From Branchiostoma floridae (lineage: Eukaryota; Chordata; Leptocardii; Amphioxiformes; Branchiostomatidae): 64,000 bases of DNA. The notes below the pieces were generated by a model, which did no database searches, had not been told where the DNA came from, and was given only the letters and a program-made list of their open reading frames with translations. Positions 27,965-61,000 of the stretch are shown here, piece by piece (the stretch's first letter is position 1; every line of letters begins with the position of its first letter). The position numbers and the translations under genes are program-made. The DNA is taken from the NCBI RefSeq assembly GCF_000003815.2, contig NC_049981.1:1666481-1730480 (forward strand), read 5' to 3'.

Positions 27965-28078
27965 TTAGTCGTCAGAGTCCTGGTCTTGTTGAGGCCTGTT
28001 CTTGTACTTCGCTTGCCGTATTTTGTACAGGTTCTTCCTGGCTTCTTCTAACTCTCGCTCTTTTCTTAAAATCTCCTC
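27965..28078 (-). CDS. TLN: Talin last coding exon, distal version
   Basis: It reads EEILRKERELEEARKNLYKI, then RQAKYKNRPQQDQDSDD and a TAA stop (27965-27967). This is the C-terminal dimerisation helix and tail. The acceptor is TTCTTCCAG. It starts in phase 0, exactly like the proximal version at 30667-30777, so either can follow exon 31527-31667. Confidence 0.92.
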   Translation of the reverse strand, partial: EEILRKERELEEARKNLYKIRQAKYKNRPQQDQDSDD

Positions 28079-31000
28079 CTGGAAGAAATAAGAAAAAAAA
28101 AGTCAGGAGAGCTGTTGCCATGGTTATAACAAAATCTGCATGTTCAAATCTACAACAACATTCCTTCTTCTACATTTGCAGGTATATGCTTCTATCTGCA
28201 CATGCAGGTACACATTAGTTGATAGTTATCACAGACAGAGGAATACATGAGAGACTAATACTAATGACATGAACTACAGACCACAAGGCCAAGGGATCTA
28301 AACTCTTTGAATCACATCTTCTGGATACCTAAAATTTTAAAGAATAATCTGATTTGTGTTCATAATTTCAGATTTATAATAATAATGCCAATATTTTTTT
28401 TTACATCATACATTTACTTCAGGTCCATGTTTGGTACCACAATGTTGCCATACAAAGAAAATGGCCAAAATCTTTTTACACAAGATGTGATCCATAAGAT
28501 CAAGATAGAGTGGCCCGTTGACAGTAGAGGGTAGGTGGGGGAGGGGGGCAAGCTGGAAAAAAGTGAACCCTACAGGGGAGTGTTCATTAATGGTGGTGAG
28601 AGCTGATGAAGCTGGGGGGAGGTGAAAGCATGTCAATCAGAAATGGGGGGGGAAGGTACATGATTATGAGGATTCTAAGTAAGGCCTCACAAAATTAGTT
28701 CATTGGTTCTCAAACAGTAAGTAAAAATGAAGCAAGTGATCAAGATGAAAAAAAAACTTTTTTTTCATGTTAATTTTCCAGCTTGGCATCTTAACCATAA
28801 ATGTGAGAACCAACATAATAACTTGGGGTGGCCTTACAGAGGTGAATCACTACCTATGTAGGAAGATTAGTGCACAGTAACAAAAGACAACAGTGGTGTA
28901 ACAAAAGCATCTATGTTGAGACTGTGAAGTGCAGTGGGCAATGGGGTCACTGTAGCTGTGTGGGTACTATGTCACTGTGAACACTATACGATACAAACGT
29001 GTATACACTGTATCACTATGTAAAAAATGGGCAAGTTACATTGTAAAATGGCACCACTTTAGTGGTGTTGCCAAAAATAGTTTGATTACTAAGGACATAC
29101 ATGTAAAGGCATTCATAGGTCAACTAGGCATTCATGATTTCATGTCAAAAGTGCAACAACACATTCTCCTTGAATTCGACAGTATCTATTTCAAACAAAA
29201 GGGAAAAAATGTCCACACGCAAGTTGCATGCACCATTGTTTTAAATTAAGAATTAAGCATCCATTTCAATTTGCAGGAATTCTGTGGGACAAGTTAACTG
29301 ATTATTTAAACTATGTCAAAATGCATCCACTACGTACAATGTACTGTACAGGGACAAATGTACACGGTCACTAGAGATTTTTTTCAATGCAAGACATAGA
29401 GCAAACCAGGGAAACAATCATTCAACTCAGCATGAAACACATGGCATCCATCAATTAATGTATTCAAACAAATGTTACTTGACTGTATTCAAACAAAACT
29501 GTCAGACTGTTGCCCCACTGCTGTGCATGTTGAAGGTAAGAAGGAACTATATTTTCTAACACCACACAGTATGTCATGGGGACAGGCATGATTATTTTGT
29601 AAGTGTGTGTGTGTGTGTGTGAGAGAGAAAGAGTGAGTGAGGAGAAGACAGGGATAAGAAGAAGAGAGGAAATGGGTGTGGCTGGAGGTTGTCATGGGAT
29701 AGAGTGAATAAAAGAAAAGTCAGGGAGAGGAAATTGATAAACACTGGTGACATGAAACCAGAGAGGAGTGCGATGGTAGAAGGAAGGATTGAGGGAAGTC
29801 CATGTAAAGGAGATAGAAGAATAAGGGAGGGAGGGAAAGAAAGAAAAGCAGTCAAGAGACTGGAATGAAAGCAATGGGATAGCAAGGAGAGAGTTAGAGG
29901 GAAATACAAGAATGGATGGAGGGAAGAGTTGAGAGAATGTATGAAAGAGTAATACTATAAGAGAGTTGATACATGTAGATGATGATGATGATGATGATAA
30001 CAGGGAAGAAGTGAGATGTACATTAGAGGGAAATACAACAGATAAGATCGATGGATGAGTGGAGGGAGTGTGAGAATGACTAACAGAGGGATGGAATGAA
30101 TTTCTTCTAGATGAAAGAGTAACAGAGAAAGGGAATGAATGAATGTCTGGCAGATGAATGCATGACTGTACAGCTGCATGCTGCTGCAGGGGAGACTGGA
30201 GCTAAGGAGATAAAAAGTGAAAGTGGAATTCATTAAAACTTTCACCTTACGTCATTCCTCAAGCACAACACCTTAAACCCAGGTGTGGTTCTCTACTGTG
30301 ATTGGCTGATGAAATGTTGTTGCCTTTCATAAAGTTTGAACTCTTTTTATCTTTCTTCATGATGCATTTTGCAGGTCAAATCCATGTACTTTTCTCTAAA
30401 AAATCATCTGTTTCTTTTTATTCCTTTTCATCTTTGGCAAAGATGTCAAAGGGGCAATGAGAAGAAAATTCACATCAAGATAAAAAAATTACCCCTTGTC
30501 CATATTTGGGAATGAGCCAATCACAGCACAAAATCACCCCCCATAAAAACAACACCTTGTCCTTATAATTAAATGAGACCATGCTGCAGGCTGTAAGAGA
30601 CAGATGCTTAGAGGGAATGAAGACAGACAACGTTGGTGAGAGACCTGCACAACACTGGCGGGAGACCTAGTCAGAATCGTCCTGGTGGTGTGGCCGGTTC
30701 TTGTACTTCGCCGTTCTGATGGCGAACAGCATCTTACGAGCCTCCTCAAGCTCCTTCTCCTTTCTTAAGATTTCCTCCTGTAAGAGGGTCATACGGGGTC
30801 ACACATGGCAAGGTGCTACAGGTGTGCACACCTGGCAGGTGAGGTCACTTTCACTTTTTTTACAGCTGTACGTGCACCCAGCAGGTGAAAGCACTTTCAC
30901 TTTTTTGACAGGTGCACACACCTAGCAGGTGAGGTCACTTTCACTTTTTTACAGCTGTATGTGCACCCAGCAGGTGAAAGCACTTTCACTTTTTTTACAG

Positions 31001-34000: not shown

Positions 34001-37000
34001 GAATATGTCGATCAGAAGATTAGATATCAATTCACAGCTAGGAAGTAAAAACCCTCTCCAACAAGATTTCTCCAAGTTTGTCACTGACGAAAAACAACGG
34101 ATGCTGTTTGAAACGTCTGACCGTTTCTAAAATCATATCCAGTTGAGTACCTGATTCTTGCCGTGTATCCGGTGAAGTAATAGACAAATTTTGTTTTGTC
34201 ATATTTCATGTAATAAAGTATCATCATAAGGAAACATTCTTCCAACTCACCGCGGAGATGAGTCCCTGTGACCACTGCCCGTCATCGTACGCCATAGCGC
34301 GGGAGGCTCCCACCTTCCCCTGCGCCACCAGCTCCCGCTGGGCCGTGGACGCAGCCTTCACCAGCGCGCTGGTTGCTGCGGCGATGGACTTGGCGGCCTC
34401 CAGGATCTGTTCCTCGAAGTTCAAGGTCTCGTCAACCTCCTGGATGATTGACAGGGAAATCAGACAAGACAATCAACACAAGATACTTCCATATATGGTA
34501 ACACAAAGATATTTTCATATCTACACCATGCCTGCAGGTCAATGCTATTTGATATCATAAAAAAAATATTGCATCAGAATCCATGAGATTTGTACAATGT
34601 TAACACTAACATTTCCTATATAATCTTATAAATGTATGCTAGAATAAAGATAATTATCTTAAAAAGATAACTGTGATAACGAACAGTATTTTGAATGGAT
34701 AAAAAAAATATCACACTGAAGTCTTCTGAAAACTGATTGTCAATGTTGCATAGAAAAGATTTTCCTACTAGTACTATCATATCAAGAACTTGCACTTTTG
34801 GACTAAAATCTTACAGCTGGCAATAGAAAAAGTTCCTTGTTTACTTTATGTTTCATGCAGAAATCTTGCAGAGATTGATAATAAAGACACTTTGCAATTA
34901 ACTATTTTAGGTACATATCTAATGAATGTAAGTAAAGTTTTTTTTTTCCTTCTTCAGTAGAATCTGAAAGTTTACTTGAACAATATGATCTAAGGCACAA
35001 AGTCATGTATATTACTAACATGTACCATATACAACTCAGCTACATTGTGCACAGACAAAGTGCATATGGGGTCTTGGTGCAACAGGCAGGGTTGGCTGTG
35101 TGTATGGGGCCTTGGATCATATGTTTGATATATTGGTTGGATAGAAGTTAACAACCAAATATCAAACATATCACCCAGAACACCACAGTGCTTCCACGTC
35201 ACTAGGCAACTGGTCGCTAGGCAACGACGCTCCACAAGGCAAGTACAGGGCACAAAGTGTTGTTACTATGGTTACCAGACATGCCAGTATTTCTAGGTGT
35301 GCTATTTTCATACTTCACCAACAAGAACACAACCCTAAGCATTTACAGTTTTATGTGGACTATCCCATTTCAGAGATAGGGTGCATTATAAGAATCCTAA
35401 AATAAAGCTTGGACTGTGCACATTGCACAATATATAATACTAACTCTTTCTATCATTACTCTAAACAAAACAAATCTTCAACCTTCTTTCTGTGCTTTAC
35501 AAACACATGTAATACACACCACATATATATATTATACTAGCATTATATCTTACCCTTCCAAACCTCTGTGCAGGCATTAGGGAAGACAGGGCAGAAACAT
35601 TAGCATAGCATAGAGAACATCCAACTTTTAACACTTACATGTATTTTACACCCAGTAAACATTGTTTATTATAACTATACACCACATGTATTTGCCATGC
35701 TAGCAATGCTGAAAAACTACATTGCAAAGCGACTTTCTCCTCAGTTTTATAAATAGATGATACCATGATTGTAAAAGTAACTTGACAATTGGTGGGGATT
35801 TGCTAGGATGCTTAATTCATTTGTAAGACATTTAAACTCTTGAGACAGTACAACTCTGTATGGTGGGCCCCCTTGGAAACCAACTCTCTTAAGTTGAAGG
35901 GGCCACGTATACTCATCCGTCTTAAGATTAAATAAATAGATAAATAAATAAAACAACTGTGACGTCTAACTATGGCAAGATCTACCAATTGAAAGATATT
36001 CACACTTCCTTAAAGTACAATCTAAGCTTACTGATTTTAATCTAAGCCCCTACCTTGGCCTTGGGTCGAGGTTTCAGCTCCGATAGTTTCTTGGCGGCCG
36101 CCTCGATGGCGGAGGCCGCTCCCAGCAGCTCGTTCTCAGCCACAACCGTGGGGTCCTCCGGATCAACCCATTCAGATCCTGCGTAGGGGGTTGCATTTTT
36201 TTTAAAACTTACATGTCATCATGATGATACTTCCAACTTTATGACAAAATCTTTAAAAACAGGTTATACAAAAATGAGACTGACTTTGACTTTATCTGGA
36301 TCCAAAATAAGCTTGACATTTCCGGCACAGCTAGCTTTTCTTCATATTTGTAAAAAGTACAAAGAAAATTAAATTTTGAACAATTCAAGATTGTCCTTTA
36401 TGCCATATAATTGCCCCAATGGAGACTGATAATTTTGCTTTAAATTTGATGATTGGAATCAAAACTTCTATCGAAAAACAACGCATCAAAATTTTGTTTG
36501 GTTGTGAAATGCATTTTCTACTTTGTATGAACTTTACTGCACCTAAACAAACAAATAAACAAACAAACAAACAGACCTTTGATGGCCTCCGCTGTCTGTA
36601 CCAGTTCTGCCACAGCCGTCGCCACCCTTTTGGAGAAATGTGCCAGCTTCTGTTTCCCTTCATGTGTGGGCTTCTGGAGGATCTGTGGATCAAACAGTCA
36701 ATCAATCAATCAATGTATTGACCAATCAATGAATCTATCTGTTATTAGATTTTGAAAACAAACTGAAAAGATAATACTGATGAACTGGAGGTATGTGACA
36801 TGAAAACCAAGTCTGTATATCGAAAGTCTGTACCTCAATACACACATTTTAATGGAAAGTCTGCATCTTTATACAAACATTTTAAGGGAAAGTCTGTACC
36901 TCAATACACACATTTTAAGGGAAAGTCTGTATCTCAATACACACATTTGAAGGGAAAGTCTGTATCTCAATACACACATTTGAAGGGAAAGTCTGTATCT

Positions 37001-40000
37001 CAATACACACATTTGAAGGGAAAGTCTGTATCTCAATACACACATTTGAAGGGAAAGTCTGTATCTCAATACACACATTTGAAGGGAAAGTCTGTACCTC
37101 AATACACACATTTTAAGGGAAAGTCTGTATCTCAATACACACATTTGAAGGGAAAGTCTGTACCTCAATACACACATTTTAAGGGAAAGTCTGTATCTCA
37201 ATACACACATTTGAAGGGAAAGTCTGTACCTCAATACACACATTTTAAGGGAAAGTCTGTATCTCAATACACACATTTGAAGGGAAAGTCTGTCTCAAGC
37301 AGGTTTTCAGCCCTCTGTTCCCATCTTTTATCATCGTCTTTACATCCAGCTAAATCTTTGTGTCATAATGTGAGACACCCAAGGCAATAATGAATAAGTG
37401 ATTGAGGAATAGCAGACGTACCGAGAGGACATGCATCAGCAGCTCCACGTACATGGACACCGTGTTCCTGCCCACTTCCATCGCTCTCTCCGTCGTCTCT
37501 CGCGACTCCGCGCCAAACGCTGAGGCCTGTGGCAAGAGGAAACTTGTTCTGTTTACCCGCTATTTAAGTAGACAAGCAAAAGACTAGCTTCATCGAAGGA
37601 CTACCAACTTTTGACACTATCTCAGAGATATTATTGTGCAAACTACTACAAGACTATCACAAAACTGCAACACTTTTTATCACATAATAAGATCAATTTT
37701 CTCCCACGAGATTAGCATCCACACATTCAAACTTTAACAATTGTCTGGCTGGACTCATCCATTTGACAAGGGGTGAACCAGAGGAGCTAAAATGACACAA
37801 TCAGGTGGACTTATCCATTTGACAAAAGGGGAGGGCAGGGTACCTTGCATGTAACAATGAGGTCTCCAACAGACTTCCTGGACATGTTGGCCACTGCGAT
37901 GATGTCGTCCTGGCGACAGCTGGTTCCCGCGGCAACGGCCTTGGCAGTGAGGAGGGTGACGGGCTTGGTGCTCCTGATCAGGTCCTCAGGAGGGAGCCTC
38001 TTCTCAGGGGGGTCCATAGAGCTCAGGATCTGGAGGGGGGTGGTGACAGTAAAAAGAGTTAAATAAAGAATTTAAACATGAACTTTTTCTAGATATGAAG
38101 TTTGATTGACGCAATGTCAACATCCTGGGTTTCTGGGACCTTGCTCTATTTAATGGGGACCAGAAAGTGTAAGATTTCTAGGAAAATGTATCAGGTAATT
38201 ATTACAAAAACGTATACAGAAATCTTTGCATCTCCAATGCCAAATACAATATTCCATATTCTTTTCTTCAAAAACCAGATTGTACATTTCGATGAAGGTT
38301 AGACATCCAGGTAACAAGATACCCCACACTATGTGTCACTGACGAAAGACGTCGGATGGCTGTCTGAAACGTCTGACCATTTCCAAAATCATACCCAGTT
38401 GCTTGAGTAACTGCTTTTGGCAGATTGTATATTACAATTTTGCAAGAAGATAGCATTTAAGACTGAATAACTGGATTCTAAATATGCGATCTTATCTTAC
38501 TGTAGAGCAAGGCAACAAGAAAGGAAGGAATAAATGAGGCATGGATAGAAGAAAAACGGATTGTTGCCTCACCCTCATCTCCTGCTTGATGGCCTCGATG
38601 GTGGCCTCCAGAGCTCGTGTTCCCCGCGCCGCCTCGTCCTCTACCGTCTTCACGGTCTTCAGCAGGGAAGTCACGTTGGTCACCATCACCTAAAGGGCAA
38701 AGGTCAAAGGTCAAATCAAGGGCAAGTTATCACCTCATTAATACACCAAAGATCACTCATGTCAACATTCACATTATGAGTTCTTCATTCAGTTGGGGCA
38801 TATCAAGGATCATTGCAGTGCATCATATCACTGGTTAACCAGTACAACAGTCAAAAAAGCTGGAGTAACCAATTGCAGACTACTAGTGCAAAATTACTAT
38901 GCCATACAGCTGTAAAATATTGTTAATTATCATTCAATAGCCTTTTTTTCACATCACTTTTAAATCATCAATTTCAAAATCTGCTGCAAAAGTCTATTAA
39001 AGCATACATGTACGCATGGCAAACATCCTTCTTCAAGCAACTCAAAATCAAAGAACTGGCAACTTTTTTTTCACATTAACCATACAAGGCAATACAATCC
39101 AGAAATCACAACAGCATTTCACTTCAGTCCCTTCTAAGCTAACACTGACCTGATTAAAGCAAATCAAAGTTAGTAAAGGTCGATGACCCCAGCATACACC
39201 AATCACAAGTCACAGTGAATGAACGTAGTACAATGTCATGTACCTTATGAAAGATGACAGGTGGCTGTGCTGCTTTGTTCATTTAAATCTCCAAATCATA
39301 TAATACTTTTCCCATATGTCTAGTTTGTTTTTCCTTGGTGACGTCATGCAATGTATAATGTGTACAATGTACGTGTGTCTACATGTATGTGGCAGAGGCT
39401 TTAAGTTATTTGGTAACGGTGACTAAAAAATAGTTCTTAGGTTTCTAAGGAATAAAATGGCATAACATGGAAGGAGGCATGCTTTTCGAAATGATAGAAA
39501 TGTTGCCATATTTTCAATAGAAAATGTCCTCAAAATTTGAAGAAAAAAAAGACTTTCCCCATGCTTTTAGTTTTACTGAAAATACAATTTCTACATGCAA
39601 GAAGGCATATATAAAAGTAATAATAGAATACTCTCACTCAAATAAGGGCACAAAACAACAACTTTCTTCAGTTATATTTTTCTTCAAAAGTTACAAATAG
39701 TCTACAATTTCATTGTATAAACATCAAATATCTTCCTACATATTAAGCACTTCATAATGTAGAATACATGCACGGATGAATATGATAGCAAAGGTATTGA
39801 ACAAAACATCTGACGCAACATAGTGGAAGACTGGCAGTCTAGCGGATGAAATTTTCACAATGATTACAATAGGTAACATACAATATGTAGTCTTGTCTAT
39901 GAAGACAAAATGTTTTTGTGACCGTTATAAAGGTCATGTAGTCATACAACACTTAAAAGAGAAGATATTAGTTTCAAAGAGTAAGATACTACAAAGTCTT

Positions 40001-43000
40001 TCTTGAGTTGTAACAGTTAGTTAAATAAGAATCACTCCAGAAGTGATACTCTATGCCTCAACGACTTCTTTTCAAGGTTCAAATTTTAAAGCTTCTAGCT
40101 TTTTTCCTACATAGCATTGCAGACATTTGCTAATTGCTCCTGGATTCAGAAAACTGCGGCAAATTTGAAAGCTGTCTTCTTTAAAAGCGGATTCCTTCAG
40201 ACATACTGCTGCTATATTACAAGCATCACCTTCTCTAAGGACCAGTATTAGTATTGTTTCTTTCTTGCAAAACCGTTAAAGCTATCATTTCAAGTATCAG
40301 TCCTGCTGCCACGTAACTGCTGAATACCTACTGCTTTAGGTATCATATTCAAAACTGCAGTGGAATTAAGATCAGTCTTCACCAGCAGTCTTGTTGGGGA
40401 CTGAGCTGCAGTAGAATTTCCCAGCATACATGTGCGTTTCCCCATATGAACAGCTGTAGCTATAAGAACAAGTCTTCTTCAATCTCTTGCAGAAATGCTA
40501 AATAAACAGTACTGCTGCTTCTACAAACCATTCTTCTTTCTGCAGATGACCAGAAACTGCTTTGAGCATCTCTCCTACTGGCACAACATTGCTGTCATAT
40601 ACAGTTTATTCAAATGTATCATATTTGCTGCAGTAGCTTTTTGCAGCATGATTTTCAGCTGCAGTTATGGCTCATTCTTCTTTCTGCGGATGACCAGAAT
40701 CTGCTTTGAGCATCTTCTCCTACAACCATGACATTGCTGGCATATATATTCGAATGCATCACGTTTGCTGCAGTAGATTGCTGCAGCTTGAATAATTCCA
40801 CTGCAGTTACGGCTCATTTTTCTTTCTGCGGATGAGCACAAGCTGCTTGGGCCTGTCTCCCCTCCCTAGGCCTGTGGGAGGCCTCCCGGTGAAGAGCTGC
40901 TGGAGCTGGAGGAGTGGCTCCTCCTCCCTTCTCCTCGGAACTGGAGAAGACGGAGCAGGAGAAGATGGTACCGGGGACGAAGGAACAGATCCTCCGATCT
41001 TCTTCTTCTTCTCCTCCAGCTCCTTGGATAAGAAACTCTCCATGGACTCTGATCGGAACATCTTCACCAACTCCGGAGTTGATGAGCCCTTCTCCGACAT
41101 CTTCTCCTGACGTTTGCGGAGAATCTTCTCCAGGTGGGAGCGGAAGTCGGACTCCACCCGGACCTTCCGCTTGCGCATCTTCCGCCCCTCCTTGGAATAT
41201 TTCTCAAGGAACTCCAAGTCTTCGCTGGCGGATTCTTGAAGAAGCTCGGCTAAGTCGCTAGCGCTGGCAGTGCGACTTGAGCTGGCGATAGAGCTTGTGT
41301 CTGTGGCCATGAGATCACTTGTTGAGCGCTGCTTGTGCATGATTCTGGGACTGTCTGCTCCACCGTACAACTCACAACTCGCCAATCTGATCATCCTCGC
41401 CAACTCGTCTTCCTTTGATTCTTCTCCTTCCCTCCTTCTTCCTTCGCCTCTTCTATCCTCTCCTCTCTGTCCATCAAATGCAGGGAACTCTCTGGAAGCT
41501 CCAGCTGTTTCCCTGGCTGCACCATATGTGTCACTATCATAGTATCTGTGACAATCCTCCATCGCTCCTTCCTCTGAGAAATCAAAGAACGGAGGCGGGG
41601 GAAGTTCCTCCTCCCCTCCCCATGGAATATCTGTGCCTTCAGTGAGCGGCACCTGTGATTGGTCATTTCTTTGTTGATTGTACTGCTCTTGGTGATCTTT
41701 GTTGGTAGCATCTTCAGCCCCCCATCCTCCTCCATCTTGCCCCAACAGACTCATGTCTGGGGGTGATGGAAAGCCATCATACTGCTCCCTTGCTGCCCTG
41801 TCTGGTACTGCAGCCGTGTGTTTCTGTGATGAAGCAGAAGGCCCTGCAGCCTCGCTGGACGTGTCTTGTGACGCTTCCGTCTCCGAAGCCTCGGTGTCCC
41901 ACTCTGCCTCCAGGAGGTAGTAGTCTTGCATCAGGTCTGCTATGATTGACTCCATGTTCCAGCTCCCAACCTTCTCCAGCTCCTCCTCACTTGCCTCCTC
42001 AGGAGCAGGTTCTTTGGTCATCGATGTTTCTTGAGGAGAGAGTTTGCGTGCGATCTCCAACTGCTCGATCCCTGGCCCTGTTGCTAGCTGCTTGCTCCAT
42101 TCAGAATCACTACCAGTGTCCACATCCATCACTCTTCCCTCCAGCTGCTCCACGCCCGATCTTTCTGCAGTCTTTCCAGTATCCTCCTCTTCCTGTTCCT
42201 CCTCCTCATCATCATCATCACCAAAGAGAGCCTGTGTGTTGCTCCGTGTGACTCTCTGCAACCTCCTCTTGGCTCCTCGGTTCTCGGAAACCTTCACAGC
42301 GAGGGAGTACAGAGCAGCCTGCTGATGGAACTGCTCTTTCTCCTGAGCAAGGTTCTCCTTGTGGTGAAGAAGCTCCTCCATCCTCTTCATGTTGTCTTGG
42401 ATCAGCTCCTCGAAGATGTCTTGGTCGTTGTCTTGGTCAGTCTCCATCTCGCTGGAGACTTCTTCCCCGAGGTTGTCTTCGCTGGCGCTGAGTTCGCTTT
42501 CGGCACTCAACATGGCAGCATCCTGCTCAGGTTCACCTGTGGGCTCCCTGCTGTCCTCATCAGCATCTTCCTCATCTTTCCTCTCATCTGGACCATCATC
42601 ATCATCCTTCTCTTGATCCGCTCCTCCTGCATCCTCCTCTGCTGGTCCCCCAGCCTCTCCTCCGGAGTCATGGTCATCAGAATCCTTCGCATCGCTGGCC
42701 GAACTCTCATCCTCATCAGAGCTATTGGTTTCTGATGACAACTGTTCGCTCATCGTCTGCTCAATCTCTCTCGTCTGGATTATCTCCACCACGGGACTGA
42801 ACCTGACCTTCGGAGGAGACTTAGACAGCATCTCTACGGTTGAGACTTTGTCATGTTCCCCCTTGTCGCCGAAATTCGTCGCCTCATACAGTTTCCCTTC
42901 CTCCAGACCCTTCTCGAGTCCCGGCATCATTGCCATCTCCGACCTCTTCCACAGTTTTGCCACCTCAAAGTCTGTCTCAGACTCAAAGGAGCTGTGGCTA

Positions 43001-46000
43001 GCCTCTTGGGACAGGTTAGGTTCTTGAGAGAGATTCTGTTCCTCCTCAGCAGGGGATGCCTCTTGCTCCTCCTCTCGCACCATCTCTTCATCGGACATCT
43101 CCATCACAACAGTCATGTCTTCAAACTGGACCTTAGGAGGAGATCGGGAGAACTCTGTCTCAAATGTGGCTTTTCTCTGTACATCTATCTCGAAAGAAGG
43201 TGACTGCTTTTTCTGAGGTTTTGGCAGTAATGTTGTCATCTCTGAGGGAGCTTTGTATTCCTCTTTCCTGGTCTGTGTCCCTACTTTATCCATGATTCCT
43301 AGCTTCACAACCTCTGCATAGGTTTTCTTCAAACCTGTGAATGATGGCAAAGCTGCAACTTCTGCCGCAGTCACCCTTCCTTTCTTCTCAACAGCAGTTT
43401 CATCTGGTTTTGTTTTAGTTATTCTAGGCTCCTGGACTGGTTTATCTTCAACCACATCCTTCGTAGGTTCAGAATCTGGCTGAACCACCTCCTTTTCAAC
43501 AACAGGAGCCTCAGAAGATGTTGTCAACTTCTTGACATCTTCTTGAGGAGGTGGAGATGGTGTTTTCTTCTTTGGCATCATCTCTGGTTCTTCCTTTAAG
43601 ATTTCTGCAGGTTTCTCAGGTAAGAACACATCATCTTCCTCTTCCAGCAGAGAAGGAATCTCCACCAACTCTACAGGCTGTTGCCTGGATACATCCTCCA
43701 CTAGTACATCATCTCCTCTTGTCTCCTCATCTTTGGATACCTCCAAGTCCCTCTCAGCTGCTTCAGTTGTAGAGTGCTCCATCATAAGTCTCCTTTCATC
43801 TTCCTGACGGAATCTTTCATCCCATTTCCTCTCCCTAACAAGAGGAATACCCCTAAACACTTTTGCTTCCTCTCTATGTCTTTCTTCTTCCGCGATTCTT
43901 TCTTCCTCGGCTTTCTTAAAAGCTATCGCCCTTTCTTCCTCGGCTTTCTTAAAAGCTATTGCTCTTTCTTCCTCCTCTGCAAGCTCCTTGATAATTCTCT
44001 CTTCTTCTTCTTGTCTGAATTTTTCATCCCACTTTCTCTCCCTGACGATAGGAAGACCTCTGTACAAGCCTTCCTCCTTCCCTGCCTCGGTTGACATACT
44101 ATCTGTCTCAAGTTTCCTTTCTTCCTCTATTTCTTCTTCTTTCACTTCAACAATCTTTTCCACTTGCTTCTTCTTCTGTACTAGAACTTTCCTGGCAAAC
44201 GCCGGCTTCAGTCCTGTTGCGGCAAACCATCTCCCGCTTTCCTCGTCAAACTGTACGTTCTCCAGAGCGTGCTCAAACTCCATGCTGTGTGGGTCCTCCT
44301 GTTCGTCTGACAGCTCATAGATGGTTTCCAGTCCACCTGGGGTTATGTCATAACACATCTCAATATCTGTGTCTGACTCGGACTCCTCCAGCTCACTTTC
44401 CTGTATCTTGTCGGCCGCTATCTTTGCTAGAGACTCGGGGGACACGCCTTTCTGTCCTCCCTCTGCTACTTCTGCCATTTCTTCAGGGACAGGACTGTCG
44501 AAGCCAATATAGCTGCTTCTCTCTGCTGTTTCAGTGTCATCTTTTCCTTCCTCTATTGTGACTGTCTCTGATGCTGTAGCAGTTTCTTCTGTCTCGATCT
44601 GTTTCTGTTGTGTTGAGGTAGTGATGCTGATGCTGGAAGTTTCCTCCTCCTTCCTTTCTTTAATTTCGATCACATCAGGAGGAGGAACCAGATCTGTTGA
44701 CATCTCAACTGTTTCCGGAGCTTCGACTTCTTCAGTGACCTGAGCGACTTCTGTGACTAGATCGGGCGGTTTGAGAGCTTCTGATGGTGGTTCGGATAAA
44801 GGTGGAGGAATGACAGGCAGTTCAGAGACGGTTGCTAGGTGATCAGGAGAATGAATGACAGGTGGTTCAGGCAAAGGTGGAGTATGAATGGCAGGTGGTT
44901 CTAAGGCGGTTGCTAGGTGATCATATGGATGAATGACAGGTGGTTCAGGCAAAGGTTGCTCAGAAACACTTGCTAAGTGATCAGCTGGATGAATGGCAGG
45001 TGGTTCGGGCAGAGGTGGTGGAGGCTGCATGGACACTGTTGCTAGGTAACCCCTTGGCAACTGAGATGGTTCAGAGACGGTTGGTACATCATCAGGCAGT
45101 GGATGGACTACAGGTGATGCAGTGGAGCAAGGTGGGATGGAGGAAGACTCTTCCTGGACCACCTCACATACAGGTGCCTTCTCCTCCATACTTACTTTGT
45201 GCGCCTCTCTGCTTCTCACCATAGACTGGCTCCCGTACACCTCTGGTTCCACATCAGGAGCTGTAACTTCCACTCTGTCTTCCAGAAGTTCCACCAAACC
45301 GCCTTCTCCTCCTCTTCCTGACCCCATCTCAGACGGCTGTTCTCCCACGATCACACTATCAGCAATCTCTCTCCTCTTCTTCAGTTTATTCTCCAGCTCC
45401 CTATCTGTCGACTCCCTCACAACAACTTTCGTGAACTGCACTTTCTTCTCCATCCTACCGTCTGCATCGCTGCCCTTCCAACTGGGGGACAAGGGTCGGA
45501 GGTCAAGGGTCCTGGTGTGGGGTTCAGGGGTCAGAGGTCGCTCTGTGGAGGAGTGGACTACATTGAGGTAGGGAGACCTGGGCCGATCTCCGGGTGACAG
45601 CCTTCCCGGAATTGGGGACTTCTTTCCTGGTACTGGGGACTGAGTTCCTAATAAGGGCGACCTCTTTCCTGGAACTGGGGACTGACTTCTTAACAAGGGT
45701 GACTTCCTTCCTGGAATTGGGGACTTTCTTCCAGGAAACAGGGCTGGCTGTGATTCTGGAGTGGGAGACTTCGGCCTCAGCGCCTTGGTCGGCCCATTGT
45801 CCACATCAGGAGACTTGTCTGCAGTGGGCGAGATGACACGCTCTACCACGTACGTGATTGGTGACTGGACTTCTGTAGTACGAGTGACAGACTTTGCGTG
45901 TCTGTTTATAAGCGGTGACTCTGGACGGGGACTTGGCGAAAGACGTCGCATCAGGGGACTGTCTCTCCCCTCCTCGATGTACAGCCTCTGCATTTCCGGC

Positions 46001-49000
46001 GTCTCAAACCGCTTCACGATGTCAAACACGTTCTCTGACGGCTCCTCGGCCAGTTCGTGAACCGGCGTTTCCGTCCTCTCGGTGTCCGACATGTCGCTAT
46101 ACCCAGGAGACGGCTGCCTAAGCATTTTCCTGGGAGGGGGTAGCGACACGTGGTTTCTCTCCGCTTTCTTCTCGTCTTGCGCGATCTCTTTCCTCTCTAC
46201 AGTCCGACCTACCATGTACCCCTGTGTCTGGGTTTTGGTGGTGACTACTTGGCTGGTTGACGTCTTGGTGACATAAGTACGACTTGTGGAGGATTTCTTG
46301 GTCTGCTCTGTAGTAAGACTGTTGATATAGTTTTCCCAGCGTGGCTGGTTTGGTTTGGTGACCTGGTACTGATTCTGGATGTCTAGTAGAAGTTGCTGTT
46401 AGAGGAGAAAAGGGGAAGGAAAAATGTTACTTTTCTTGTTCTACAAGACTAAGTCTTGAGGCCACACCAATAAAATTTATTGGTTTTTGGATTAAAAACA
46501 TTATTTTGAACTGGAAGAAAACAGCATCTCAGAGAAATGTAACAGTTTAAGGGTGTGAATATAGTTAATATACTCAGATTAAAGTTTTCATCCAGAAACC
46601 AATGAGATAAGTTGCTGTGGCCTGAACATTTGGGAAATATGAACCAAAAGAAGCAAAACGACAAGGTAAGCTAGGAAATTGAATAAACTTTTACTCCACT
46701 ATAGAATGACTTCTAAATCCACCCCCAAAAATACATCAGCATGCAGATCATTATGTTACATATGCAGAGAAATCAAAGATATACACGTAAGCAGAATCAT
46801 ATTTATTCATAATTGCATAGACCACATCAAACAGAAGCTTGTATATATCCTACAAATCCTAGCTTAGCTGGAGAAAACAGCAGTAATCTAAGAAAGCATC
46901 AGTTTTTTCCATGAAAAAAAAATAGAAGGAAAATTTTGAAGAAGGACAAGTATTCATATTTGAAGGAATAGGTCTTAAAAATCAGTTTAAAACGGAAAGA
47001 AAAGACAACAGGAAGGGAGAATCGAAACAGGTGAAGAATGAAGGAGGTGTGAAGTAAGGAAGGAGGGAGTGAGAGAAGCAACAGCTGACAGGGTGCTAGT
47101 ATGACAGGCATACAGCGAGATTGAGAGAAGGTTGGAGCATTCAGTGGAGAAATACGAGCATTCCGGAGAGGAACAGAGAGGTTGGAAACACTGAAGCCAT
47201 GCGGAGACAGTCGCTGCCATACTAGCCACATGCCAGCTGTCACATTCGGAATGGAGCGAAGAATGGGTGGTCCACGTTACCTTGTGCTGCACGCACGCAC
47301 GAGCGCGTATCCTCTCTCTCCGAGACGGCGGGCAAAAAAAATCGGCTGGTAACGTCTCACAAGATGTGCATGGAGTTAAGAATGGCAGTCAATATTGAGA
47401 TGCCATGCCTCAATAATTTACATACCGTTTCTAGTGGTAGTGACTACATTAGTTGTTTCCTTGTCGTCATGCCAACAAGAACATTGGTATCGCACGCTGT
47501 TGGCGGAAGTCACAGTTAGCGTCACACGTACGTACATGTATGGGGTGTTTGGGTGGGGGTGAGGGAAAAACACATGCCACTGCTTTGGGTACGTGGGAAC
47601 ATTTATAATGTGGTGAAAGTGTGGTGTATTGTATGTATACATGGCAATGCAAATGCATAACACCAGCATAGGACTGTGTCTTTTCAAGATCTTAAAACTA
47701 CCGGACTCGTTGCAAAATGGTGCCTTACTAATCACTGTTTGTGTCTTCAAAATATCTCTCTCTAACGCAAAACTGAACAAGACAGCCTTTGATGAACATG
47801 TGCAGGATTTATCAAAATTTTGTCCCTTTTTTCCGGAAGACTCGAAACCACAGCAGCCACCGTCAACTCGACATTCTCNNNNNNNNNNNNNNNNNNNNNN
47901 NNNNNNNNNNNNNNNNNNNNNNNNNNNNNNNNNNNNNNNNNNNNNNNNNNNNNNNNNNNNNNNNNNNNNNNNNNNNNNCTCGACATTTCTTCCCGTTTTG
48001 CATCACACCAAACTGACCAATCACAAGCGGCCACATCATCTACACTGCAGTACCATTCATGCCAGACAGAGGGCGTACCTTGGCAGAGTTCTTCAGCTGC
48101 ACCATGGATGGGTCCTGGACAGGCTTGCCCGAAGCGTTCTTGGTCGCCTCGATCAGTTCTCCAAGAGCCACAGCCACGTCTTTCACAGCGTTTATCAACA
48201 AGACCTAAGAAACAACACATTCAAGGCCAAACTTACAAAAAACAACTGTTTGCAATAGTTCAAAATCTGCCAGAAGTTTTGATCATGACTACATTGATAA
48301 TGATGTATCATTGTACGATAATACTAAAATACTTGCAAATGAGCTCTAAAAATCACCACTTGCTGCTTTACATGTTGGTGTAAAATTTGAGCTAATCTTC
48401 ATCAAATTTATGATGATAAGCAATTCCAAAAGATGCAGCCACTCAAGTGTTTTTGTTTTTTAAGTCTAACCTATGGTACATTGTAAGTAAAATTTTTTAC
48501 TTTCTCTTAATTTTAACTTACTGGACAATATCAGGCAACTAGGGAAAGAAATCAAATCCTGAACTGAGCCAGTCTGAGCTTTCATGAATAGACAAATGCA
48601 TCAACAAACAAACAAACTAACAACAAACAAACGAACAAACAATCAACCCTGACCTGTGCCTCTGCATCCTGTGGTCCCAGACTGGCAGCACCTGACTTGA
48701 CGGCATCGGCCAGTTTGGTGATGGTGTCCACAGCCGACTGCGCAGCTGCAGCCAGGTGCTCCTGACTCGACGCAGCACCTGACACAAGCGTCTTCGTGTC
48801 CTCCACAAGGGCCTTCGCTGTCTTCAAAATGTTCTCTCTGGAGCAAGACATTTGGAATTATTAGTAAGGGTGTCAGATTATATTATATGCCACTGGTTTA
48901 TACGACTGGTTAAGCCAGGCAATCAGAGATGGCAGCCTTCACCCCTTTCACACGTTCTGCCCAAGTCCCAAGAGATAGGTGACGCTTTTATAGCTGCCAC

Positions 49001-58000: not shown

Positions 58001-61000
58001 AAAGTGTCGGGCCTGTTGAATGTCAAGCATTAGTGCCAAGTATTTGGCCCCAGCAGTGGACAATGCAGCAGGGCCCTTAAAAGTAAAACACCTAGGCTCT
58101 TAAGTGCAAAGCCTTAGGCCCATGCAGTGGAAAGAGAAGCATTGAGATCTTGAGGTGAAGATTTTTGCTGTGCCAGTGCAGTGGGAATTTTTTAGGGTCC
58201 GATCGAGGAGGGAGAAGCGTTGAGGGGTGCCTAACCTACCTTGATGGGCACAGTGCGGTCGCGCTAGTTTGAGAGAGAGTGAGAGCGGAGGTGAGATGAG
58301 AGTTAGGTCACACACAAACAAACACACACAAACAAACACTGTGAGACTGAGATGGAGAAGCGTGAGAAATGGAGCCACATGCACAACAGTGTAGTTAACA
58401 CAGACTCTTCATCTTAAAGTACAAACCTGTTAATTGATTCACGTATTTTACACACAAACCTAACTTATAAGCTAATTTCCTAAATTTGTAGTACACTATT
58501 CTAAGGATTTAGATGATGTAATGTTCTTTGCCTTTGTCATTGTCTGAAGCTTCACATTATGACATTTCTTATGACATATGACTTATAAAGATAAAAACGT
58601 ACAGTAATATTTACAGTATTTAGTCGTAGTTACAATAGCAATGCGATAAGGAATAGCAGACACTTAATACAAAGACAATACAGCGAAGCAAGCCTGAGTT
58701 CCATTTCTTTGCTACAGTGGCATAGATGTACAATCATGTAGATCAAAGCTGCAAGCTAGCTGAGCCACTGAATACTGTATTGTCACAGTACTGGTGTACT
58801 GTTCAAGTATTAAATAAAATACTGATAAAGCTTAACTACTGTCTTATAATGGTGAGAAGCAAGCCTAGCTATAGGTTCTTCTCCTATATGCTACAAGCGT
58901 ACATGTACATATACATCTTTCCTCTGCTACAGTGACGAAAGCTGCAAGCTGTTGGCTAGTGTAAAACCTACATTAAAGGCAACCTAAGCAATGTTAATAT
59001 ACTATAATCTATAGCCTTAAACGTGGAAAAGTGCCCCAAATCTCGACTCAATAATTAAAGTTCTACAACCCTGACTCGAGCTAATATTGCTTAGGTTGCC
59101 TCTAAATGGATCCTACTGTTATGGTACTAGTCTATTGTTACAGTAGTAATACTGTATTCTAATGTTGTATCACTAAGAGGGCGTGAAGCAAGCCTGTGTT
59201 CCTCTCCTGTTTGCTGCGGTGGCGTGGACGAAAGCTGCGAGCTGTTGGCCATTCCTGCAGCGTAAAACCCAACATTAATTGAAACCTACTGTTACAGTAC
59301 TGGACTTCCCGGCCCGTACCTGAGCCTGAGACGTTGTCGGGTCCAGTAGCTGCTGACACGCCATCTGGATGGCCTGGTTGGCCCGCGCAAACTGAGACTG
59401 GTCCACCAGCCCCTGCCGCCCGGCCTGGCTTGACGGGTCCGCAATGCCCACAAGGTACGCGGTCTGCAGGAAAAATAGGTCAGAGGTCAATATAAGATAT
59501 GTACAGTGGCGCCTTCACAGCAAATCACGGAAGGTGTCCTGCAGGATTTTCGTGATCTCCTGAGGGTTTTGCGTGACATACACAAAAATGGAACACCATT
59601 ATGGCTGCAAATTTCATCATCTTAGGTTTCCTATTTGTTCTTTTTCAACAGCATAACACGTGCAACATGCAACATCTTTGTTAAATGTTTTGTGGCAGAA
59701 TATTTTTGACTCACAAAGGAACGTGAACCCTTTTTGGACATTACAAAGTAAATACTAAGCAACAGAAGGTGAAAACGAAGCTTCAAACAGATTCAATATT
59801 CAGTGAGAAACTGCACGTACAGTGTTAGGTGAATACCCTTTCCTCACAATATGTTTTCATGCTCATCCTCTAGTTTAGCAACCGACAACATCTGGTGTAA
59901 TAAGGAAAAATTGCTGTATGTGAAAAGAAACGAACTGTACCTGAGCAGCCGCCTCTGTGAGCCCGCAGACTGCCGTGGATGCTCTTGTGACGGCTGAGCC
60001 GAACTCTTCGTGCTCACTGTTCTTGGCATGCTGGGTAATAGAGCTCATCGACTCTCCCAGCGTCTGAGAAACAAATAAAAATATTTTTCAGTAATTCATT
60101 TTAACTCAAATCAGATTCTCCTTTACATACAGGTTAACGTCTTCTGACTCATTCTCCTTAACTTATGAAAGATAGTGGATGCTACATGTACCTGAAACAT
60201 CTAACCCTTTAGAGAATTTATCCCACTGTTTGCTTTGTGTTGCATTCTACCTTGATGTTAAAAATTCACTGCCGAAATAAAACCTATTCATGTCATTACC
60301 CATACAATAACAATACTTAATTAAAATTTACCTAGCATAAATACCAAACTTAAGTTCTCAAACATGTCTTAAGAGAAAGTTCCCTACCTTAGACTTGTCC
60401 ATGACTGTCTCCAGGCAGTCAAAGTATGTCAGATCATTGACAGGCTCCATGGGGTTGTCCAGCATGCTGCGCATCACCTAAAACACAAAGATACACTATC
60501 AAAACAAGTCTCCACACCCCTGGAGCTGCAATGGGAGCACCCAGATTGCAAGGACAACATTCATATTGGACACTTTCATTCACTTGTTGTGGGTAGAGCA
60601 GGCCCTTTAAAAAAAAAATTCAATCATAGAACAATTGTGAAACATTCCAAGTCAACAATACATTGACATTTTTTGTATGTCATTATCCATGTACATTGAT
60701 GGTGAAGTGGAGAAAAAGCCTTGGAAACCATCCTACAAGCATTACATACATGTACGTTCAATCCAAACTTGACAAGAATGCTGACAGTCATGGTTTGACA
60801 CACATATCAAAATATCACAAGTATACTCTGTAGGTTTGAGGAGTTTTTGAAAAGAAAAAAATTGTGATGGGTCAAGGCAAGCTCCCATCATCGAAATACA
60901 GTGGAAACCAGTTAATTGCACAAAGGATAATCGCACACTTCTGTTAATTGCATGAAAATCCCAAAATTCCGTGATGGTGCAGTCCAGCTTCATAACTTCG

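Follow-up and report, generated by a model that had tools for sequence, protein, structure and literature searches.

A giant open exon in the talin gene of Branchiostoma floridae is probably an alternative terminal exon encoding a 1862-residue tail

Talin is the textbook clutch between integrin and actin, and the locus described here raises the question of whether a single talin gene can also encode a talin that ends before the clutch is complete. We analysed a window of 64,000 nucleotides of the Branchiostoma floridae genome (assembly GCF_000003815.2, contig NC_049981.1, positions 1666481-1730480), in which talin is encoded on the minus strand, with rod exons running from the upper end of the window down to position 27968. 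One intron of this gene contains an open frame of 1862 codons, on the same strand as the flanking rod exons and phase-compatible with them, and this giant exon is probably an alternative terminal exon of the talin gene that gives the protein a new tail. The features at the branch point are listed below, in positions of the window.

48204..48079, minus strand: talin exon before the branch point, VLLINAVKD..QLKNSAK, with a phase-0 donor at 48079 (splice scoring, aligned to talin-1)
46420..46396, minus strand: acceptor of the giant exon with its pyrimidine tract and AG, TTTTTCCTTCCCCTTTTCTCCTCTAACAG (weight-matrix score 11.5)
46395..40807, minus strand: putative giant alternative terminal exon, 1862 codons and TAA (open frame, splice signals, coding scores)
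40610..40605, minus strand: poly(A) signal AATAAA for the giant exon, starting at the 197th base past the stop
38689..38573, minus strand: talin exon that follows in the canonical form, VMVTNV..KQEMR, with the end of R11 and the start of R12 (splice scoring, talin-1 alignment)

A preliminary description of this DNA, made from the letters alone, had reported an uninterrupted frame with a strong pyrimidine-tract acceptor, in phase 0 with the upstream talin donor and followed at about 200 bases by an AATAAA, and our analysis agrees on each count. The giant exon is 5589 nt long, has no internal stop and ends in its own TAA; a run of 1862 open codons would arise by chance with a probability of about 10^-40 to 10^-43. 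An in-frame TAA lies at 46401-46399 (minus strand), one codon (CAG) 5' of the exon, and the open frame thus starts at acceptor 46395. Scored with a rough weight matrix of our own, this acceptor reached 11.5, against a median of 7.8 for the 28 other assigned talin acceptors, which were assigned partly by the same score and three of which scored equally high; over the minus strand of the whole window, 13 of 4039 background AGs scored as high. Donor 48079 (NSAK), acceptor 46395 (QLLL) and acceptor 38689 (VMVTNV) are all in phase 0. The last codons of the giant exon, its stop and the following untranslated region are repeated about 2.2 times (40510-40848) with a unit of 142 nt, the downstream copy of which reads ILVIRRKKNEP and then a stop.

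The position of the junction within talin could be defined by alignment. The spliced canonical C-terminus (620 residues) aligned to talin-1 over residues 3-615 with an E-value of 1e-240, and NSAK and VMVTNV, said earlier to join directly in vertebrate talin, are indeed contiguous in mammalian talin-1. NSAK corresponds to chain position 158 of 3dyj and, by match offsets, to about residue 2119 of talin-1; as we take R11 to span residues 1974-2140, the junction falls in the last R11 helix, in keeping with the earlier placement of the cut near the end of R11. In the canonical form, 420 residues follow the junction: the rest of R11, R12, R13, which contains the third actin-binding site (ABS3), and the dimerisation helix. 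ABS3 is assigned to R13 and the dimerisation domain (R13-DD), ABS2 to R4-R8 and the integrin-binding site IBS2 to R11-R12 (PMC6032930). The stop of the giant exon precedes the I/LWEQ exons, and no I_LWEQ match was found in the tail by Pfam searches with the whole tail and its pieces. The predicted product would therefore not be a canonical talin, which combines FERM and I/LWEQ (PMC1702346), although it would come from the talin gene. A helix at the start of the giant exon that would complete the interrupted bundle was also considered, and was rejected for its weak BLOSUM and hydrophobic-pattern fit.

The whole assembly (513 Mb, 431 contigs) was searched at an E-value threshold of 0.001 and contains a single talin locus. 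Its sole Talin_middle matches are exons of the same contig, located 29-33 kb past the window and with the orientation of the talin in it. Four matches to the I/LWEQ family were found, one in the talin of the window and three in exons on C11, presumably belonging to a HIP1-type gene. A single talin is also what PMC6032930 gives for B. floridae. Apart from talin, nothing upstream is a clear source of a phase-0 coding exon for acceptor 46395.

Whether the frame is coding, and from its very first codon, was assessed over 60-codon windows, in bits, with codon tables trained on talin exons and with a second model built from the remainder of the giant exon. By the talin-trained tables, codons 1-60 scored 0.1 bits, against a mean of -58.4 (standard deviation 18.7) for intron windows, 11 of 1612 of which scored at least as high; the two shifted frames of the same codons scored -39 and -44, and the stretch of 180 nt that leads up to the acceptor scored -54.3. 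Stop-free intron windows are the fairer comparison, though as they overlap they are not independent: 15 of 857 scored at least as high as codons 1-60, all of them starting near 61.3 kb, and with the windows starting at 61.0-61.6 kb set aside, none of 788 did. The exon-trained model gave closely similar figures (9 of 1612 windows in all; 16 of 857 stop-free windows, all at 61.3 kb; none of 788 without them). Codons 1-60 thus look coding, which favours their being joined to an upstream coding exon. Along the giant exon, 23 of 31 windows had a talin-trained score of at least 0, and its codon choice comes closer to that of talin than a composition-based draw of synonymous codons does (-0.178 versus -0.388, standard deviation 0.027). 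Further evidence comes from a duplication within the tail.

44066..43776, minus strand: duplicated motif [YF]RG[LI]P[IL]VRERKWDE[KR]FRQE on either side of an ER/K-rich block predicted to be helical (repeat search, predicted structure)

The 81-nt stretch coding for this motif (repeat D5) has a dS of 1.05 and a dN of 0.19 between its copies, and of the 19 changes 11 are nonsynonymous, against an expected 82% (P = 0.011); as judged from these two copies, the comparison shows purifying selection on the duplicated segment. A second repeat in the tail, AIAFKKAEEE, has a single difference, which is synonymous. No haplotype copy of the giant exon that would allow a dN/dS estimate was found in the same genome. 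Repeats inside the giant exon would suit an untranslated or spurious open frame, be it a retained-intron RNA, an antisense artefact or an assembly error; set against a chance of 10^-40 for such a frame, the mostly coding-like scores along the exon and the synonymous differences in both repeats, we find this explanation scarcely credible. The giant exon is very likely to be a real coding sequence.

Several results weigh against a talin tail all the same, or lessen the force of the evidence for it. The phase match alone carries little weight, because phase 0 is common in this talin. The start of the giant exon matches the R11 helix that it would replace only weakly, ranking 29 of 1849 by BLOSUM at a length of 14 and worse at the other five lengths, with an unremarkable hydrophobic pattern at all four lengths tried. 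Codons 1-60 are outscored by 22 of the 30 other sixty-codon windows of the giant exon, and the exon-trained model gives an equal 3 bits to their shifted frame 1. Codon preference by relative synonymous codon usage was -0.178 in the true frame, -0.062 in frame +1 and -0.006 in one antisense frame; it was dropped as a frame test, as it does not separate the frames. Purifying selection was not found in the proline-rich D2 repeats (pN/pS of 1.01 and 0.62). Two further points concern the intron before the giant exon (48078-46396), namely a run of 100 N at 47879-47978, where sequence may be missing, and a CpG-rich patch at 47.0-47.6 kb.

47610..46990, minus strand: CpG-rich intron patch, candidate internal promoter or 5' exon, with donors at 47426 and 47281 (CpG windows, genome search, donor scores)

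Such a patch would fit an independent nested gene, in which a promoter in the intron would produce a noncoding 5' exon spliced to 46395, with translation starting at M61 or M91 and yielding an acidic scaffold protein that is separate from talin and has no residue in common with it. The segment 47201-47600 has an observed/expected CpG ratio of 0.94 (median of all windows, 0.42) and a GC content of 0.51, and ranks 7th of 371 windows, the six above it including some inside the giant exon and others elsewhere in the gene. The DNA of the patch gave a single match when the genome was searched by a method that passes over very common words, donors 47426 and 47281 score 7.7 and 7.3, a TATA-like site is found at 47607, M91 has an A at -3, and the N run could conceal more sequence. 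A nested gene would, however, leave codons 1-60 untranslated, yet these are open and coding-like; M61 has a T at -3; and no strong coding first exon is visible in the intron, where one of the four donors scoring at least 5 has an open ATG frame, of 41 codons. We regard a nested gene as unlikely, if worth serious consideration.

Donors within the giant exon raise a different arrangement. Only three of them, at 46213, 45220 and 45196 (minus strand), score at least as high as donor 48079, and because all three are in phase 0, short in-frame inserts into R11 are possible: a cassette of 61, 392 or 400 codons could be spliced on to 38689, so that talin would be complete but carry a disordered loop in R11, and the rest of the frame would be read only when these donors are skipped. 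Their common phase is unremarkable, however, because GTA-AGx is a natural codon pair, and the frame continues for 1462 codons beyond the last of them, with coding-like scores over most of the exon, before reaching a stop and an AATAAA. Such a cassette is very unlikely in our judgement.

In the favoured reading, that of an alternative terminal exon, donor 48079 would be spliced to 46395 and the transcript would end near 40.6 kb. We infer the use of this splice and the presence of the head, whose exons lie outside the window; on balance, a talin with the giant tail is the better-than-even outcome. The product would presumably retain the head that binds integrin, together with the rod as far as the middle of the last R11 helix, would lose R12, R13 with ABS3 and the dimerisation helix, and would gain a 1862-residue, mostly disordered and phosphorylatable scaffold tail. 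Its head would engage integrin, and the sites in the middle of the rod would stay, that is, ABS2 (R4-R8) and the upstream vinculin sites. The tail could act as a client-recruiting arm, with predicted motifs for EB-type proteins (SxIP), PP1 (KVxF) and Ena/VASP (LPPPP), and a talin so built might serve as a monomeric adaptor for signalling or for microtubules instead of as an actin clutch. What such a tail would do is inferred; among its features are the following.

45737..45601, minus strand: array of 21-nt units coding for basic SP repeats, with two SxIP motifs at tail residues 225 and 260 (repeat and motif search)
44283..44092, minus strand: predicted helix, beta-hairpin, helix element, tail residues 705-768 (AlphaFold2, single sequence)

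The tail is Pro/Ser-rich and acidic, as had been described (15.3% Glu, 9.5% Ser and 8.5% Pro, with acidic stretches down to -23 per 60 residues), and includes a basic Ser/Pro region at residues 181-300 with a net charge of +5 and +6 per 60 residues. Strict SxIP motifs number four, against 0.81 expected in shuffles. Two of these, SPIP at residues 225 and 260, have the [ST]x[IL]P sequence in the basic, Ser/Pro-rich and presumably disordered context of an SxIP ligand. KVxF occurs at residues 318, 1088 and 1196 (three against 0.29 in shuffles), LPPPP once, at residue 1598, and SP/TP 42 times against 24.3 expected in shuffles. PxxP and the single LPPPP exceed global shuffles, but when the controls are shuffled locally they do not (p = 0.67 and 0.15), and LD motifs, NPxY, 14-3-3, SH3, GSK3, LIR and CK2 motifs were not above shuffles in the tail; the motif list was chosen after the sequence had been read, and the p values, for 15 patterns tried, are uncorrected. 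Structure was predicted by AlphaFold2 without an alignment for tail residues 640-940 and 690-800. The ER/K-rich block (787-849) was predicted as long helices, with a predicted local distance difference test (pLDDT) score of about 90 in most blocks, and for the element at 705-768 the pLDDT was 84-89 within 710-759 (five 10-residue blocks) and fell to 76 and 66 in the two adjoining blocks, with a predicted template-modelling score of 0.44. Composition and the low pLDDT over parts of residues 640-940 suggest that the tail is mostly disordered.

Binding of SxIP to EB is established for other proteins (PMC12695022, PMC4159139), and one could imagine that lancelets, by choice of the last exon, produce a talin that links integrin directly to microtubules: its head would be kept and, in place of the C-terminal actin and dimerisation module, a giant tail under phospho-regulation would hold microtubule plus ends through SxIP and bring in PP1 and Ena/VASP. 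We consider such a linker decidedly unlikely. The SxIP motifs at 225 and 260 are not independent, because both lie in one tandem array, and those at 418 and 1588 sit in acidic stretches. Spectraplakins are adhesion-site adaptors with an SxIP motif for EB1. The same is true of Kank (PMC4159139), which is, however, a separate protein, whereas the motifs described here would be part of talin and their binding is predicted.

No homolog of the tail had been recognised earlier, and this holds for Pfam, the PDB sequences, one scan of viral contigs and the genome itself. In Pfam searches with the whole tail and ten covering pieces, no match came close to a curated cut-off; the best, DUF489, had 12.8 bits (cut-off, 26) at an E-value of 0.13. 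By sequence, the PDB contained nothing credible for the tail (Skp1, E = 0.44; a designed helical barrel, E = 1.5), and by fold none of 98 matches to residues 690-800 reached an E-value of 0.001 (best, 2.2). In its own genome the tail, a single copy, matches only itself, and the viral-contig scan confirmed no relative. A viral or transposon origin is disfavoured, given the single genome match and the lack of a viral-contig relative, bacterial, phage and plasmid collections not having been searched.

Variation of the talin C-terminus by splicing has precedents in Ciona and the fly (PMC1702346). In Ciona intestinalis, talin-a and talin-b both keep the I/LWEQ module and differ over their last 78 residues, which are 42% identical (Singiser and McCann 2006, PMC1702346). 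The lancelet gene has a pair of exons of similar appearance.

30777..30670, minus strand: alternative last exon a, dimerisation helix, EEILRKEKELEEARKMLFAIRTAKYKNRPHHQDDSD (splice scoring; AATAAA at 30422)
28078..27968, minus strand: alternative last exon b, dimerisation helix, EEILRKERELEEARKNLYKIRQAKYKNRPQQDQDSDD (splice scoring, repeat comparison)

Over 29 aligned codons, exons a and b differ with a pN of 0.16 and a pS of 0.92 (pN/pS 0.17); no AATAAA or ATTAAA was found for exon b from 27967 to 26500. From their sequences, it is these two exons, and not the giant exon, that appear to form a Ciona-type pair of homologous last exons ending the I/LWEQ module, and they look like the same kind of choice. 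The giant exon shares with Ciona talin-a and talin-b the setting, a single talin gene of a non-vertebrate chordate whose C-terminus is altered by alternative last exons (PMC1702346), but its use would drop the whole I/LWEQ module and add 1862 unrelated residues. The preliminary description was right as to the coordinates, length, phase, stop, poly(A) signal and R11 position of the giant exon; its interpretation omitted the pair of dimerisation-helix exons, the Ciona precedent, the SxIP, KVxF and LPPPP motifs, the in-phase internal donors and the possible internal promoter.

Other comparisons are more distant. As a single exon of more than 5 kb with a Ser-rich composition, the giant exon resembles in length and composition the giant-exon scaffolds of the ankyrin type. 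The giant exon of ankyrin, which we take to be an internal cassette that keeps the downstream domains, is in this respect unlike a terminal exon of talin. Ankyrin-G is also a membrane-cytoskeleton adaptor with a very long, Ser-rich region in some splice forms that is regulated by phosphorylation (PMC12202978). Certain Talin2 isoforms likewise lack major modules, but there the FERM domain is lost and the C-terminal part kept, of which the giant-exon talin would be the reverse (PMC6032930). Alternative talin C-termini are already known; among the matches listed, examined by titles and the starts of abstracts and with the subscription literature mostly uncovered, there was no report of a giant talin tail, of lancelet talin isoforms, or of a giant exon that removes the I/LWEQ module.

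The C-terminal actin site of talin is thought to bear the first force (PMC6032930). If our reading is correct, an isoform without this site and without the dimerisation helix would be a natural case of integrin being activated apart from the actin clutch, and a chordate with a single talin would diversify it without the duplication behind vertebrate talin-1 and talin-2.

Two further stretches of the window were noted in talin introns. A 33-nt minisatellite at 36822-37293 comprises 14.3 copies with a 94% match, and the plus-strand open frame of 207 codons that runs over it is probably not a gene. The stretch at 61362-61117 (minus strand), lying between one talin exon that ends at 62051 and another that starts at 60477, is open and coding-like (TVTEITEVHTSSSSVETTETRK..); among the intron stretches tested, it is the sole place with stop-free windows that score like coding sequence, and it is possibly an extra or alternative talin exon.

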